NCBI GenBank assembly: GCA_003963145.1
Contig: RXJJ01000004.1
Span: forward strand, 1,482-64,661
From: Bradyrhizobiaceae bacterium
Lineage (GTDB): Bacteria > Pseudomonadota > Alphaproteobacteria > Rhizobiales > Xanthobacteraceae
DNA length: 63,180 nucleotides
Reading direction: 5' to 3'
Below the pieces are notes generated by a model. That model was not told the DNA's origin, did not search any database, and saw only the letters and a list, made by a program, of their open reading frames with translations. Made by a program: the position numbers and the translations under genes. Below are positions 58,883 through 63,180 of the stretch, in pieces; position 1 is the first letter of the stretch; each line of letters begins with the position of its first letter.

Positions 58883-61010
58883 GGCCGGACAGACTCGGAT
58901 TTGTCATGAAGTAATTGTGAACGTTGAAAGGCTCCTCGCCTTTCCCGGCCTTCATACGCGTTGACGATCCATCCGGCAACAACTGCCAGCTTTGTTCGTT
59001 GTCTTTCAGATTCGCGACCATGATCTGTTCGAGAACCTGCTGATGAACCGTGGGATTCTGGAGCGGACACAAGACCTCGACGCGCCGGTCGAGGTTGCGC
59101 GGCATCATGTCCGCCGAGGAAATATACACAGCCGACTTCTCGCTCGGCAGACCGTGCCCCATGCCGAAGCAATAGATTCGGCCGTGTTCGAGAAACCGTC
59201 CGATGATCGACTTGACGCGGATGTTGTCCGACAGGCCGGCGACACCGGGACGCAGACAGCAGATCCCGCGCACGACCAGTTCGATCTGCACGCCGGCCTG
59301 CGAAGCCGCGTAGAGCGCGTCGATGACTTCCGGATCGACCAGCGCGTTCATCTTCATCCAGATCGCGGCCGGCTTGCCCTTGCGCGCGTACTCCGCCTCA
59401 GCGGCGATATGTTCGAGTATTCTCCCGCGCAGCGTGAGGGGCGACACCGCCATCTTCTCGATGTCGCTGGGCTCCGCGTAACCCGTGATGAAGTTGAACA
59501 CGCGCGCGGCGTCGCGGGCGATCACGGGATCGGACGTGAAATAGGACAGGTCGGTATAAATGCGCGCCGTGACGGGATGGTAATTGCCGGTGCCGGCGTG
59601 AACATAAGTGGTCAGCCCGCCGTTCTCGCGCCGCACGACGCAGGACAATTTGGCGTGGGTCTTCAATTCAAGAAAACCGTACACCACCTGCACGCCGGCG
59701 CGCTCCAGATCGCGCGCCCAGCGGATATTGGCTTCCTCGTCGAACCGCGCCTTGAGTTCGACCAGCGCCGTCACCGACTTGCCGGCCTCGGCGGCCTCGG
59801 CGAGCGCGCGCACGATCGGCGAGTCGCGCGAGGTGCGGTAGAGCGTCTGCTTGATGGCGACGACATCGGGATCGCGCGCCGCCTGCTGCAGGAACTGCAC
59901 CACGACGTCGAACGACTCGTAAGGGTGATGGACGACCAGGTCCTTCTGGCGGATCGCGGCGAAGATATCGCCGCCATGATCGCGCACACGCTCCGGATGG
60001 CGCGGCACATAGGGCGCGAATTCGAGATCGGGGCGATCGACCCGAGTGAGCTGCGACAGCTCGTTCATCGCCAGCACGCCATCGACAAGCAGAACGTCGT
60101 CGTCGGGCGTCGAGAGCGCGCGCTGCACGAAGGCACGCAAATCCTGCGGCATCGCCGCTTCCATCTCGAGCCGGATGACCGATCCGCGGCGGCGGCGCTT
60201 CAGCGCGCTTTCGAACAGGCGCACGAGGTCTTCCGCCTCTTCCTCGATTTCCAGTTCGGAGTCGCGGATGATGCGGAACGCGCCCTGCCCCTTGACGGCA
60301 TAGCCGGGGAACAGCCGGGCGATGAACAGCGAGGTCGCCTGCTCCAGCGTGATCATGCGGATGCGGCCATCCTTGCCGGCAGGCAGACGGATGAAGCGGT
60401 CGATCTTGCCCGGCATGCGGATCAGCGCGTTCATCGAGCGCCCGTCCGAGCTTCGCGCCAGATGCAGCGCGATGGTGAACCCGAGGCTGGGAATGAACGG
60501 AAACGGATGCGCGGGGTCGATCGCCAGCGGCGTGAGCAGCGGAAAGATGTTGTGCAGGAAGTGATCCTCGATCCAGCTCACTTCCGATTTGGTGACGTCG
60601 CGGCCATCGACCAGCACGATCCCCGCATCGGCCAGGATCGCGTGAAGATCGCGCCAGATCGCCTGCTGATCCTTCGCCAGCCGGGAGACGGCCTCGTTGA
60701 TGAGAACGAGCTGCTCGGCCGGCGTCAGCCCGTCGGGGCTGCGCTCGGTGAAGCCCTCGCGGATCTGCGCCTTGAGACCGGCGACGCGAACCATGAAAAA
60801 CTCGTCGAGATTGTTGGCGGAAATCGACAGGAACCGCACCCGCTCCAGCACCGGATGGTTCGGATTGACCGCCTCCTCAAGAACGCGCCGGTTGAAATGC
60901 AGCCACGACAGTTCCCGATTGATGAACCGCTCCGGCCCGTCCCTGACGGACGGATCCAGCGTTTCGGCCTCGGTTTCGTCATGCCGGACAGTGGCTTGGG
61001 GCGTATCCAT
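58824..61010 (-). CDS. ppk: Polyphosphate kinase 1
   Basis: A 728-residue kinase that makes polyphosphate from ATP. The start is the ATG at 61010. The N-terminal [20 protein letters not shown], the [10 protein letters not shown] stretch and the catalytic histidines in [13 protein letters not shown] and THAGTGNYH region ([10 protein letters not shown]) are canonical PPK1. It and ppx are read leftward from a shared transcript, with a PHO box 72 bases before the start. Confidence 0.96.
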
Positions 61011-61063
61011 CAAAGGGCCTGTGACTTGAAAAAAATGCGGCGGCGCAACAATTTACGCGTGCC

Positions 61064-61079
61064 GGATCATCTTTGATCC
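61064..61079. promoter_or_regulatory. Perfect dyad in the ppk leader
   Basis: GGATCA-TCTT-TGATCC, a 16-base perfect inverted repeat, lies between the PHO box and the ppk start. It could be an operator or an early transcript hairpin. No assignment is possible. Confidence 0.4.
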
Positions 61080-61081
61080 GC

Positions 61082-61099
61082 ATGACAATTCAATGACAT
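61082..61099 (-). promoter_or_regulatory. PHO box upstream of ppk
   Basis: On the minus strand ATGTCAT-TGAA-TTGTCAT is two direct TGTCAT repeats on an 11-base period, the PhoB-binding consensus. It lies 72 bases before the ppk start and 110 bases before the start of the divergent nucleotidyltransferase gene. ppk is a classic phosphate-starvation gene. Confidence 0.85.
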
Positions 61100-61208
61100 C
61101 ATGGGCCAAGGCGGCGGATTGGCCAAGCGGGATGTTGGGGGACTAGCCTTCAAAGCAAAGCACCTAGGTATTATTCGGCGTTTCTCGTTTGTCCTAATAA
61201 AGAAAATT

Positions 61209-62228
61209 ATGGAGGATAATTTGTATATCGCAAAAACTTTGACGCTGATTCAATCTGACCGTTCTCTCTTTGAGAACCGATCTGTGTACGCAAATACTAA
61301 ATTGGGAACGCTCGCATCTCACCTCGGAAAGTCGGAACGTGTAAAAAGCTTTCCTCAACTCGCTATATATACCGCGGGATCCTACGGTCGGCTTGAAGCC
61401 AGCCCCTATTCCGATATTGATCTATTTTTTGTTGTAGCAAAATCACGCGATAGCCTACCCGAATTCCGAGTACCAGAAATAAGACTGCTATCCGACATTA
61501 TTGATATTGGTTTTCGATTAGATTTTCCAAAGTTTTCAAACGACGGCGAGTATCTGAAGATACTTTTTGCCGAAGATATTCTTAACAATCTTGGAAGTCC
61601 TTCGGACGACTATCATAACTATTTCACCGCGAGAATGCTTCTGCTCCTCGAGGGGCGCCCCGTATATGGCGAGGCGATTTATTCTCGCCTACTAAAAAAT
61701 ATCATCAACTCGTATTTCCGAGACTATCGGAATCACCCTGATGATTTTCGTCCAACATTTTTGATCAATGACATATTACGATTTTGGAAAACACTATGCT
61801 TAAATTACGAACACAAGCGCAACGAAGAAGAGTCGCGCGCACGAATCAAGCACAAGATTAAAAACTTTAAATTAGGCTTCAGCAGACTTCTAATTTGCTT
61901 CGCCACTGTCGCCGCACTCGGTGCATATCGGAAAAACGTTACGCCCAATATCGTTCAGAAGATTTGTCGAATGACGCCAGTTCAGCGACTTGCGTTTGCT
62001 GCTCAAACAAGCCCCGCCGTTCAGCAAAAAGTGGTTGAGGCCTTACATCTTCATAGCTGGTTTCTACGCAAAACAGCACTCTCGACAGATCAACTTGAAA
62101 AATACTTTTCCGTTAAGGCAAATAGGATTGAAGCATTTAGTCGTGCGCGCGAGTTCGGAAATAAGATTTTTGAAATACTCGAAATTATGGACAAGGATCA
62201 CAGCAACATGCGATATCTGGTGGTGTGA
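61209..62228 (+). CDS. GlnD-like nucleotidyltransferase of unknown target, in an AT-rich insertion
   Basis: A 339-residue protein from the ATG at 61209; a TTG at 61221 has a perfect GGAGG five bases before it and may be the real start. The nucleotidyltransferase signature AGSYGRLEASPYSDIDLFFV (G57-S58, D69, D71) is the Gly-Ser loop and Asp pair of the pol-beta superfamily and resembles GlnD/DUF294. The rest (FSNDGEYLKILF, FTARMLLLLEGRPVYGE, FLINDILRFWKTLCLNYEHKR) is helical, cytoplasmic, and matches no named enzyme I know. No GlnD HD or ACT domains are present, so it is not a PII uridylyltransferase. GC is about 40% in a sampled line, and codons are unlike the neighbours, indicating transfer. 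Confidence 0.85.
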   Translation: MEDNLYIAKTLTLIQSDRSLFENRSVYANTKLGTLASHLGKSERVKSFPQLAIYTAGSYGRLEASPYSDIDLFFVVAKSRDSLPEFRVPEIRLLSDIIDIGFRLDFPKFSNDGEYLKILFAEDILNNLGSPSDDYHNYFTARMLLLLEGRPVYGEAIYSRLLKNIINSYFRDYRNHPDDFRPTFLINDILRFWKTLCLNYEHKRNEEESRARIKHKIKNFKLGFSRLLICFATVAALGAYRKNVTPNIVQKICRMTPVQRLAFAAQTSPAVQQKVVEALHLHSWFLRKTALSTDQLEKYFSVKANRIEAFSRAREFGNKIFEILEIMDKDHSNMRYLVV

Positions 62229-62809
62229 TGCGTATTTTTTATGGCTTGTATGTTCAAAATGAAAAACTGGCAGCCGCTTTTGATTTAATCCGATTTTTAG
62301 CCGAGCCTAATTTTTTTCGAAGAGCTCACATAACCGTTCGCGGACCTTACACAACTCCGTTGACTATCAATTCGAGCGAGACTTTTACCATTTATCCGAA
62401 AGGGATTGATTCGTTTTTCGACGTTACGCAACGCCAACATACCGTTTTTTTGAAATGCGAAATTCCTGGCATTGAACGAGTCTGGCATAAGCCGGACTTT
62501 GAGGGAAAAATTACGCCGCATATTACCTTCTACGATGGCAAGGAACGCAGCTTAGCATATTCTCTGCTGCGTCAGCTCCAGACGCATAATTGGATATTTC
62601 CAATTCAATCTACAGAACTGGTCGAAGTTGCCCCCAAGGCTGCCGCTGCTTCCTTGAATGAATTCCAACTTCACCAAGAAACTTATAATGAGATACTAGG
62701 ACAAAACATCGACTATCGAATCGTCGGTCAACTGCATTGGCGAAAGCGTATTGATCTTGTTGCGTGGGTTGCAGACTTCGTAGATAAAAATTTTGCACAA
62801 GTGAAATAA
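62228..62809 (+). CDS. 2H phosphoesterase (LigT / 2'-5' RNA ligase-like)
   Basis: A 193-residue cytoplasmic protein. The two hallmark His-x-Thr motifs are H34-I-T36 (RRAHITVRGPY) and H98-I-T100 (ITPHITFYDG), 64 residues apart, which set the two-lobed 2H active site. Family members open 2',3'-cyclic phosphates, hydrolyse 2'-5' linked oligonucleotides or degrade signalling nucleotides. The ATG at 62228 overlaps the stop of the nucleotidyltransferase (TGATG); an alternative GTG is at 62225. It is as AT-rich as its partner. Together they form a coupled two-gene cassette. Confidence 0.85.
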   Translation: MRIFYGLYVQNEKLAAAFDLIRFLAEPNFFRRAHITVRGPYTTPLTINSSETFTIYPKGIDSFFDVTQRQHTVFLKCEIPGIERVWHKPDFEGKITPHITFYDGKERSLAYSLLRQLQTHNWIFPIQSTELVEVAPKAAAASLNEFQLHQETYNEILGQNIDYRIVGQLHWRKRIDLVAWVADFVDKNFAQVK

Positions 62810-62823
62810 CAACCCCAACAATA

Positions 62824-62852
62824 TTGACATCATCTCATATCGTGATTATATT
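62824..62852 (+). promoter_or_regulatory. Consensus sigma-70 promoter
   Basis: TTGACA (62824-62829), 17 bases, then TATATT (62847-62852). This is the best promoter match in the window. A start near 62859 would place the palindrome GCCCCTCATGAGGGGC at the very 5' end of the transcript. What it drives lies beyond the window or is an untranslated RNA. Confidence 0.7.
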
Positions 62853-62863
62853 CCTATTCATCC

Positions 62864-62881
62864 CGCCCCTCATGAGGGGCG
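62864..62881. other. 18-base palindrome at the repeat edge
   Basis: A perfect 18-base palindrome centred on TCATGA (62864-62881) lies about 12 bases after the -10 element of the promoter at 62824. It could fold as a 5' hairpin in a transcript, act as a repeat boundary or be a binding site. Confidence 0.6.
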
Positions 62882-63180
62882 CTCGCGATCGTCACGAACG
62901 CGGGGCGGGTGCGGTGGACGCGGCAGCGTCAGGCGCGATGTGAAGCGGGAGGGCGTCGCCTTGTTTTCAGGTGGGCGGCGTGACCCGCGGATGATCGCGC
63001 TGACGACGATGTTGTTGCGGACGGCCCAAATCGTGTGGTCCTGACGCCCCGGACGTGGCGTCAAGCCGGGGGCGGCGCGGCCTTCAACCGAAGGCGCAGT
63101 GCCGGTCGATCCGGCGACGGTGACAAACAAACGTGCGGTCACCGGGGAGAGCGCGACACAAGCCGTTAAAACCATTGCGT

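Follow-up and report, generated by a model that had tools for sequence, protein, structure and literature searches.

A nucleotidyltransferase and 2H phosphoesterase gene pair from a Bradyrhizobiaceae bacterium belongs to a nucleotidyltransferase family whose adjoining hydrolase changes by clade

The subject of this work is a pair of genes near the right-hand end of a 63,180-nucleotide stretch of DNA from a Bradyrhizobiaceae bacterium (contig RXJJ01000004.1, positions 1,482 to 64,661; the whole stretch is called the window, and positions are numbered within it). The genes encode a nucleotidyltransferase (NTase) of the pol-beta superfamily and a predicted 2H phosphoesterase. A previous reading of the letters alone, referred to here as the sequence-only reading, had picked out the pair as a translationally coupled cassette of foreign appearance in which a writer enzyme is followed by an eraser. 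The features of the pair are as follows.

61209..62228, plus strand: pol-beta superfamily NTase, 339 aa, with a GlnE/DrrA-like fold, PDC-M70A-like
61374..61424, plus strand: NTase signature AGSYGRLEASPYSDIDL (G57, S58, D69, D71)
61542..61544, plus strand: D112, candidate third catalytic acid, conserved in 94/95 aligned NTases
62211..62225, plus strand: NTase C-terminal tail RYLVV, conserved; modelled as disordered
62226..62230, plus strand: stop/start overlap TGATG
62228..62809, plus strand: 2H phosphoesterase, 193 aa (alternative start GTG at 62225)
62327..62335, plus strand: first 2H catalytic motif, H34-I-T36 (H in 51/51 and T in 51/51 2H proteins)
62519..62527, plus strand: second 2H catalytic motif, H98-I-T100 (H in 51/51, T in 47/51, S in 4/51)

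The NTase frame runs from the ATG at 61209 to the TGA at 62228 (339 codons) and is open from 61101. The protein scores 23.3 bits against PF01909 (cut-off 21), which identifies a pol-beta NTase domain, and in an alignment of 95 NTases (A4) the signature residues are almost invariant (G57 95/95, S58 94/95, D69 94/95, D71 95/95); D112 may, from its conservation in the same alignment, be the third catalytic acid. Structure models of the NTase and 2H monomers are both confident, and the NTase model lies nearest in fold to the AMPylases DrrA and GlnE, with aminoglycoside NTases also matched. At an E value of 10 the only PADLOC models to match the NTase were PDC-M70A and PDC-S09, the former over residues 50-324 with an E value of 1.4e-24 (this model has no curated cut-off). 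The sequence-only reading had described a pol-beta signature without the other domains of GlnD, and that description stands. The best GlnD score was 24.8 bits, the cut-off being 519.4, and Pfam listed no HD or ACT domain at an E value of 10; we therefore rejected the possibility that the protein is a GlnD or Rel fragment. Identity as a cGAS/DncV-like nucleotidyltransferase (CD-NTase) was also rejected, as no PADLOC cyclase model matched at an E value of 10. The Foldseek list for the NTase model includes one cGAS chain (E 0.46), and CD-NTases do not appear in the first 50 structure-alignment rows, a result that is non-diagnostic for CD-NTase membership. The C-terminal tail is conserved (R335 86/95, Y336 80/95, L337 82/95, V338 88/95) and falls in the last block of the model, which has a mean predicted local distance difference test score of 64. 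Self-nucleotidylation of the C-terminal tyrosine was dropped as a main idea because the tyrosine is kept in only 80/95 proteins and the last residues of distant clades are hydrophobic ones of other kinds.

The second frame extends from the ATG at 62228 (or the GTG at 62225) to the TAA at 62809 and has 193 codons. It combines two H-x-[TS] motifs with a 2H fold, nearest in the model to YjcG and CPDase, and on this basis the product is a predicted phosphodiesterase of the 2H superfamily; no PADLOC model matched it at an E value of 10. The paired HIT motifs and the TGATG overlap of NTase stop and 2H start had both been pointed out from the sequence and are present, the overlap being suggestive of translational coupling. 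Both active sites appear intact, with catalytic residues kept in 94-95/95 NTases and 51/51 2H proteins.

The surroundings of the pair bear on its origin.

61131..62823, strand not assigned: inserted segment holding the NTase and 2H genes only, defined by alignment to the same-genus locus L108
58824-61013, minus strand: left neighbour, an open reading frame (ORF) of 729 aa

Base composition agrees with the earlier description of an AT-rich, foreign-looking gene pair: the G+C content of the cassette is 42.7% versus 61.7% for window positions 1-61013, and the lowest value among 1,188 segments of 1,601 bp (starts before 59,400, step 50) is 56.6%. At third codon positions the G+C fraction is 0.42 and 0.39 in the two cassette genes and 0.81 in the left neighbour. 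This neighbour is putatively ppk, by the label of the earlier reader and our own recognition of the protein. Its locus was recovered from nine other genomes of the same genus, and the available flanks gave no cassette match in any of the nine (0/9). In L108 the left-neighbour protein is 94% identical to that of the window, and the DNA aligns to window positions 60502-61130 and 62824-63180. The insert can be placed at 61131-62823, with only two genes in it, because these flanks stand 48 bp apart in L108, which represents an empty site. No target-site duplication, direct repeats or tRNA was seen at the insert ends. Taken together, the G+C content and the empty site support horizontal acquisition of the cassette as a unit.

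The pair had also been said to sit between ppk and a dispersed repeat. The repeat is indeed dispersed in the genome: there are six further matches (seven in total), including two adjacent ones on contig C11. It does not belong to the cassette, since L108 has it at the same site without the cassette, and a second copy was not found in the window. Window positions 62824-63180 match contigs C20 and C29 at their first bases, and C11 from base 12, and therefore the assembly breaks in this repeat; the contig ends where the window ends.

The NTase and its partner co-occur well beyond this genome, as the sequence-only reading had said. Scanning a genome collection (84,980 species) with the NTase profile only gave 31 loci from many phyla, and a 2H gene lies directly downstream of the NTase in 27/31 of these. 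The 27 include L024, where the NTase is cut by the contig start, L029, where it is split, and L008 and L028, where the 2H gene is cut by the contig end. The four remaining loci comprise L014 and L030, which end at contig ends, L023, which has an RNase T-like exonuclease, and L032, which has no recognised partner and whose NTase reads SGID in place of SDID, the first Asp of DxD being lost. From the NTase stop to the earliest possible start of the 2H frame the distance is -4 to +5 nt in 27/28 measured loci, the window included, the exception being L021, with its long upstream frame. Distance matrices of the NTase and 2H proteins are correlated (Mantel r 0.74, 0/5,000 permutations, 23 loci, uncorrected for phylogeny). 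We are almost certain that NTase and hydrolase form a real conserved module. In L029 (positions 38-998; a metagenome-assembled genome, MAG) and L089 (9638-10654) the NTase is broken, by split frames and by one internal TAG, respectively, and an apparently intact 2H or exonuclease gene stands beside it.

The module is patchily distributed. The NTase profile at an E value of 1e-12 found 7/297 genomes of the order, the genome of the window counted, and in three phylum samples it found 1/345, 4/346 and 4/398, with the centre genome counted in each. The 2H profile at 1e-8 found only the window's own copy among the 297 genomes, in a search with an approximate first pass that may miss far 2H relatives. 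At the level of the class, 112/289 genomes matched the NTase at an E value of 1e-3; the six with E values below 1e-20 were kept, and the others (1.8e-7 or weaker) were dropped, nearly all being frames of 770-1,270 aa, the size of GlnD. A phage origin was rejected, no match having been found in phages or viral contigs, and so was plasmid carriage, for which there were only 4 records at 28-30% identity to the window NTase; the NTases of L063 and L091 as queries recover the same 4 plasmid records.

The central observation of this work came from twenty further NTase loci, collected by class, order, phylum and plasmid searches. An adjoining hydrolase partner is present in 17/20, and it is most often not a 2H protein; in the list, dNTPase stands for deoxynucleoside triphosphatase.

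2H: L034
SAMHD1/dNTPase-like HD: L035, L036, L037, L090, L091, L092 and L063 (E. coli plasmid)
PDC-M70B-type TIM barrel: L065, L066, L099, L100 and L101
CobC-like histidine phosphatase: L064
RNase T-like exonuclease: L087, L088 and L089

L035, L036 and L037 are near-copies from one genus. In L104 an HD gene lies about 0.5 kb from the NTase; its product matches HD chains, SAMHD1-like ones among them, and CloA is not the name of any of the 31 chains listed. In a tree of 46 rows the HD, TIM-barrel and exonuclease loci each occupy one side of a branch (support 91/81, 100/99 and 99/97; the HD branch is not starred), as do the 2H loci save for L032, which falls inside them; the histidine phosphatase group is a single long-branch row. 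The six partner labels require 5 changes on this tree, the minimum, against a mean of 17.9 for shuffled labels (0/200 shuffles as low). The 2H and exonuclease clades share one branch (100/99) apart from the HD, TIM-barrel and histidine phosphatase loci. The tree leaves aside the partial or broken loci L014, L024, L029, L030 and L089 and the duplicates or near-copies L036, L038, L084, L103 and L105. As judged from these sequences, the NTase family keeps an adjoining predicted phosphoester hydrolase whose type (2H, exonuclease, HD, TIM barrel or histidine phosphatase) is specific to the clade.

Our HD2, TIM2, EXO, mt1 and mt2 profiles were built partly from loci that they later matched, and those matches hold by construction. 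Independent support for the partner labels is as follows: (i) for HD, from Pfam, NCBIfam and the PDB, from a single-sequence profile on L090, L091, L092 and L104, and from HD2 on the unused L063, L086 and L102; (ii) for the exonuclease, from the PDB and NCBIfam for L088 and from EXO on the unused L023 and L089; (iii) for the TIM barrel, from Pfam for L066, PADLOC for L065, a single-sequence profile for L099 and TIM2 on the unused L100 and L101; and (iv) for the histidine phosphatase, from Pfam and NCBIfam. Gene order also varies, with 2H, histidine phosphatase and rhizobial TIM-barrel genes following the NTase and HD, exonuclease and actinobacterial TIM-barrel genes preceding it. In L065 and L066 the TIM-barrel gene overlaps the NTase stop, and the L065 partner matches PDC-M70B with an E value of 2.6e-106.

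The plasmid-borne loci among these include L063 and L066. L063 (1-1706 and 4131-4499) is the 4.5-kb E. coli plasmid pISHS7_5 with an HD and NTase pair; the HD frame crosses the start of the record, and the gene table of the plasmid collection has no genes there. In L066 (1161-8855) the NTase and TIM-barrel genes lie on a Mesorhizobium plasmid of conjugative type, next to a ThiF family gene on the opposite strand and about 3.7 kb from a SIR2 family gene.

The exchange of partners can be explained in more than one way. According to one scenario, resembling Clover or a toxin-antitoxin system, the hydrolase is a harmful effector and the NTase restrains it, either by making a nucleotide inhibitor, like CloB, or by nucleotidylating its partner, like MntA. 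In Clover, the CloB product p3diT inhibits the CloA HD dGTPase and active-site mutants of the NTase are toxic (PMC12265719). One clade here likewise joins the NTase with a SAMHD1-type, dNTPase-related HD protein, the AMPylase type of fold leaves room for nucleotidylation of a partner, five hydrolase folds are more easily seen as so many effectors than as erasers that all act on a single product, and the pair would be self-sufficient at loci that have no further parts. Weighing on the other side, the order of the hydrolase and NTase genes varies between clades, apparently intact partners stand beside broken NTases in L029 and L089, and the window NTase scores below the MntA cut-off. We consider a restrained effector of this kind rather doubtful in itself, and still nearly as likely as the write-erase module set out below.

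Some loci carry additional parts. In 10/27 2H loci a protein of 712-1250 aa has the 2H domain at its N terminus, fused to an N6-adenine DNA methyltransferase, and all ten fusions keep both HxT motifs and the NPPY/W motif. Nine of the ten were scanned, those of L004, L006, L009, L010, L013 and L015 matching a type II methyltransferase model best and those of L012, L019 and L020 a type IIG model; the methyltransferase of L017 was assigned by alignment and motif only. The insert in the window has no DNA methyltransferase. The small gene after the L010 fusion encodes a two-transmembrane (2TM) effector (PADLOC E 4.7e-19), and that after the fusions of L004 and L013 a hydrophobic protein. In L006 a patatin-like phospholipase effector (PADLOC E 7.8e-108) is encoded on the opposite strand, at a distance of 106 bp from the NTase frame. 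We take the 2TM and phospholipase effector models to belong to the cyclic oligonucleotide-based antiphage signaling system (CBASS). Apart from a 209-aa ORF in L010, to which we return, L006 and L010 contain no other ORF of at least 180 aa with an NTase motif. A protein of 212/213 aa follows the L012 and L019 methyltransferases and shows, by eye only, a D...ECK pattern; it had no Pfam match in L012 and one sub-threshold match in L019, and no PDB match in L012. Assignment of this protein as a PD-(D/E)XK nuclease was rejected, neither copy having a PADLOC match at an E value of 1. TIR domains are fused to the NTase in query P0142 and in P0166, P0167 and P0168, found among the best 120 of 1,658 matches. 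In L021 (8987-12291), from a Chloroflexi MAG, the fusion joins 2H to a GNAT domain and to a region that weakly matches PIN (18 bits, cut-off 27), and an ASCH-domain protein follows. In L018 (511-6112), from a Bacteroidales MAG, the NTase-2H pair is followed after 365 bp by QueC, TGT, an oligonucleotide cyclase, a 2TM effector and OGG on the same strand, presumably a type IV CBASS make-up. A single-sequence profile of the L018 cyclase gave no other match in any of the loci, although such a profile has little power to find divergent CD-NTases.

A scan of 85/120 selected neighbour ORFs from 22 loci, with no control set, yielded 181 PADLOC and 113 Pfam families, 25 of each being listed. The listed Pfam families are mostly housekeeping, and type I restriction-modification genes occur in one neighbour set. 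Given the make-up of these loci, a defence or conflict role is in our view probable, the neighbour links being associations for which we claim no enrichment. The defence logic proposed in the sequence-only reading is partly supported, the PDC-M70A match, the TIR and methyltransferase fusions and the CBASS neighbours speaking for it.

It is also conceivable that the pair nucleotidylates a protein or small molecule in metabolism or regulation, with no role in conflict, like GlnE/GlnD or a biosynthetic pair. The mostly housekeeping neighbours would suit this, as would the fold match to GlnE and aminoglycoside NTases, the position of L064 amid glycosyltransferase and major facilitator superfamily genes with a CobC-like phosphatase, and the dispersal of HD and NTase genes in the L086/L102 lineage. 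The patchy cross-phylum spread, the low-GC insertion and the methyltransferase, TIR and CBASS neighbours all argue against it, and we regard it as very improbable.

The same neighbours bear on repair of RNA 3' ends, in which the hydrolase would remove the cyclic or terminal phosphates that ribonuclease toxins leave behind and the NTase would restore lost nucleotides. 2H enzymes do remove 2',3'-cyclic ends, and nucleic-acid ends or phosphates can be substrates of the partner classes found. RlaP-type NTases have been proposed to put back bases, together with RNA ligases, in jumbo phages (PMC7824862). The listed Pfam families include no RNA ligase, which is weak evidence, the CCA-adding and poly(A) enzymes are not among the top fold matches, and the methyltransferase and TIR fusions would be left unexplained. 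Repair therefore seems to us improbable, to much the same degree as a purely metabolic role.

We favor, tentatively, the possibility that the cassette is an acquired two-gene write-erase module in which a constant NTase is combined with an exchangeable phosphoester hydrolase; this falls somewhat short of an even chance. The active sites, the coupling, the clade-specific hydrolase and the insertion as a unit are read from the sequence. In such a module the NTase, with its GlnE/DrrA-like fold, would attach a nucleotide and make an oligonucleotide-like product, which might be a short signal in solution or a tail at the 3' end of an RNA. The co-translated 2H enzyme would cut this product, so that it would accumulate only on infection or stress. 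The extra parts, where present (TIR, 2TM or patatin, the adenine methyltransferase fused to 2H, the nuclease-like gene), would be an output or a self/non-self arm.

Counted for this model were the co-occurrence, close spacing and correlated distances of the two genes, the change of hydrolase type only at clade borders, the defence links and the lack of any other 2H match at 1e-8 in the 297 genomes of the order, together with the following points. First, Usb1, Acb1, RNase T and oligoribonuclease share as substrates short (linear) oligonucleotides and RNA 3' ends; because the 2H and RNase T-like clades form one branch and their enzymes share such substrates, we counted this for removal of the NTase product. 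Second, TIR, 2TM and patatin would fit as outputs because effectors of these kinds read nucleotide signals in CBASS. Third, the DxD motif is degraded in L032, the sole NTase whose surroundings are known and that lacks a recognised partner. As for the writer-plus-eraser proposal of the sequence-only reading, the clade-wise exchange of hydrolases lends it support; as to the direction of control, that the hydrolase would be an eraser rather than an effector is, to us, a little short of an even call.

Several observations weigh against the write-erase module: (i) the NTase fold is nearest to protein AMPylases, not oligonucleotide synthases; (ii) the HD partner is dNTPase-like, which would suit an effector better than an oligonucleotide eraser; (iii) the HD gene lies 6-8 kb from the NTase in L038 (L086) and L102; (iv) the apparently intact partners beside broken NTases in L029 and L089 indicate that partners do not always need the NTase; (v) the window pair is alone, with no recognised effector in the insert, and since many loci, the window included, lack one, a signal would have no reader; and (vi) the 209-aa minus-strand ORF of L010 (12602-13231), about 0.9 kb past the 2TM gene, is MNT-like, with the motif GSYARG...ESDID.

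A broader form of the write-erase model, which we think unlikely, would make the NTase the constant core of a class of immune modules. Its mark or linear oligonucleotide would be removed by a partner from at least five hydrolase folds, and in the 2H-methyltransferase branch DNA methylation status would control a nucleotide signal, either in place of DNA cleavage or along with it, in a manner like restriction-modification. If this were true, NTase signaling, 2H enzymes and DNA methylation would be joined in one system, and PDC-M70 would be explained as one member of a wider class. Five natural partner types on one NTase family also offer an experimental handle for finding the NTase product, by asking which molecule all of the partners, or the cognate one only, cut or respond to.

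There are points of contact with known systems. In maturation of U6 snRNA the 2H exonuclease USB1 trims an RNA 3' tail added by the NTase TUT1; these are eukaryotic, unlinked genes and the NTase is of another fold group, so the likeness is an analogy only. The window NTase differs from GlnD/GlnE and DrrA nucleotidylyltransferases in having none of the GlnD/GlnE domains beyond the NTase and a helical domain. It differs from the NTase of the type VII toxin-antitoxin system MntA/HepT (14.1 bits against the MntA model, cut-off 60), and its partner has a 2H fold in place of HEPN. Against HalB of Hailong it scores 12.6 bits (cut-off 190), with a fold match that spans 84 residues only. Unlike CBASS, the cassette has an NTase that fits no cyclase model and no dedicated effector in the insert, and unlike Acb1, the phage 2H antagonist of CBASS, the window 2H gene is in the NTase operon and is not phage-borne. 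A dNTPase-NTase pair was reportedly described by Nicastro et al. in 2023, as cited in the Clover paper, and it may cover part of the present family. Clover itself (CloA dGTPase and CloB NTase; PMC12265719) is likewise a two-gene operon of NTase and phosphohydrolase, and HD partners occur in another clade here; the window partner has the 2H fold and motifs, not those of the HD protein CloA. A further such system is PADLOC PDC-M70, which consists of an NTase (PDC-M70A) and a TIM barrel (PDC-M70B) and is itself only a candidate system: the window NTase matches the former, its relatives in L065 and L066 have the TIM-barrel partner, and the window partner is a 2H protein with no match to PDC-M70B. 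Our literature search, with subscription papers mostly outside it, found no paper that names PDC-M70 and, in the text available, including that of PMC12839542, PMC10853773, PMC7824862 and PMC5512222, no account of a module made up of NTase and 2H, or of NTase and a 2H-methyltransferase. What is new here is an NTase family in which the type of hydrolase changes by clade.

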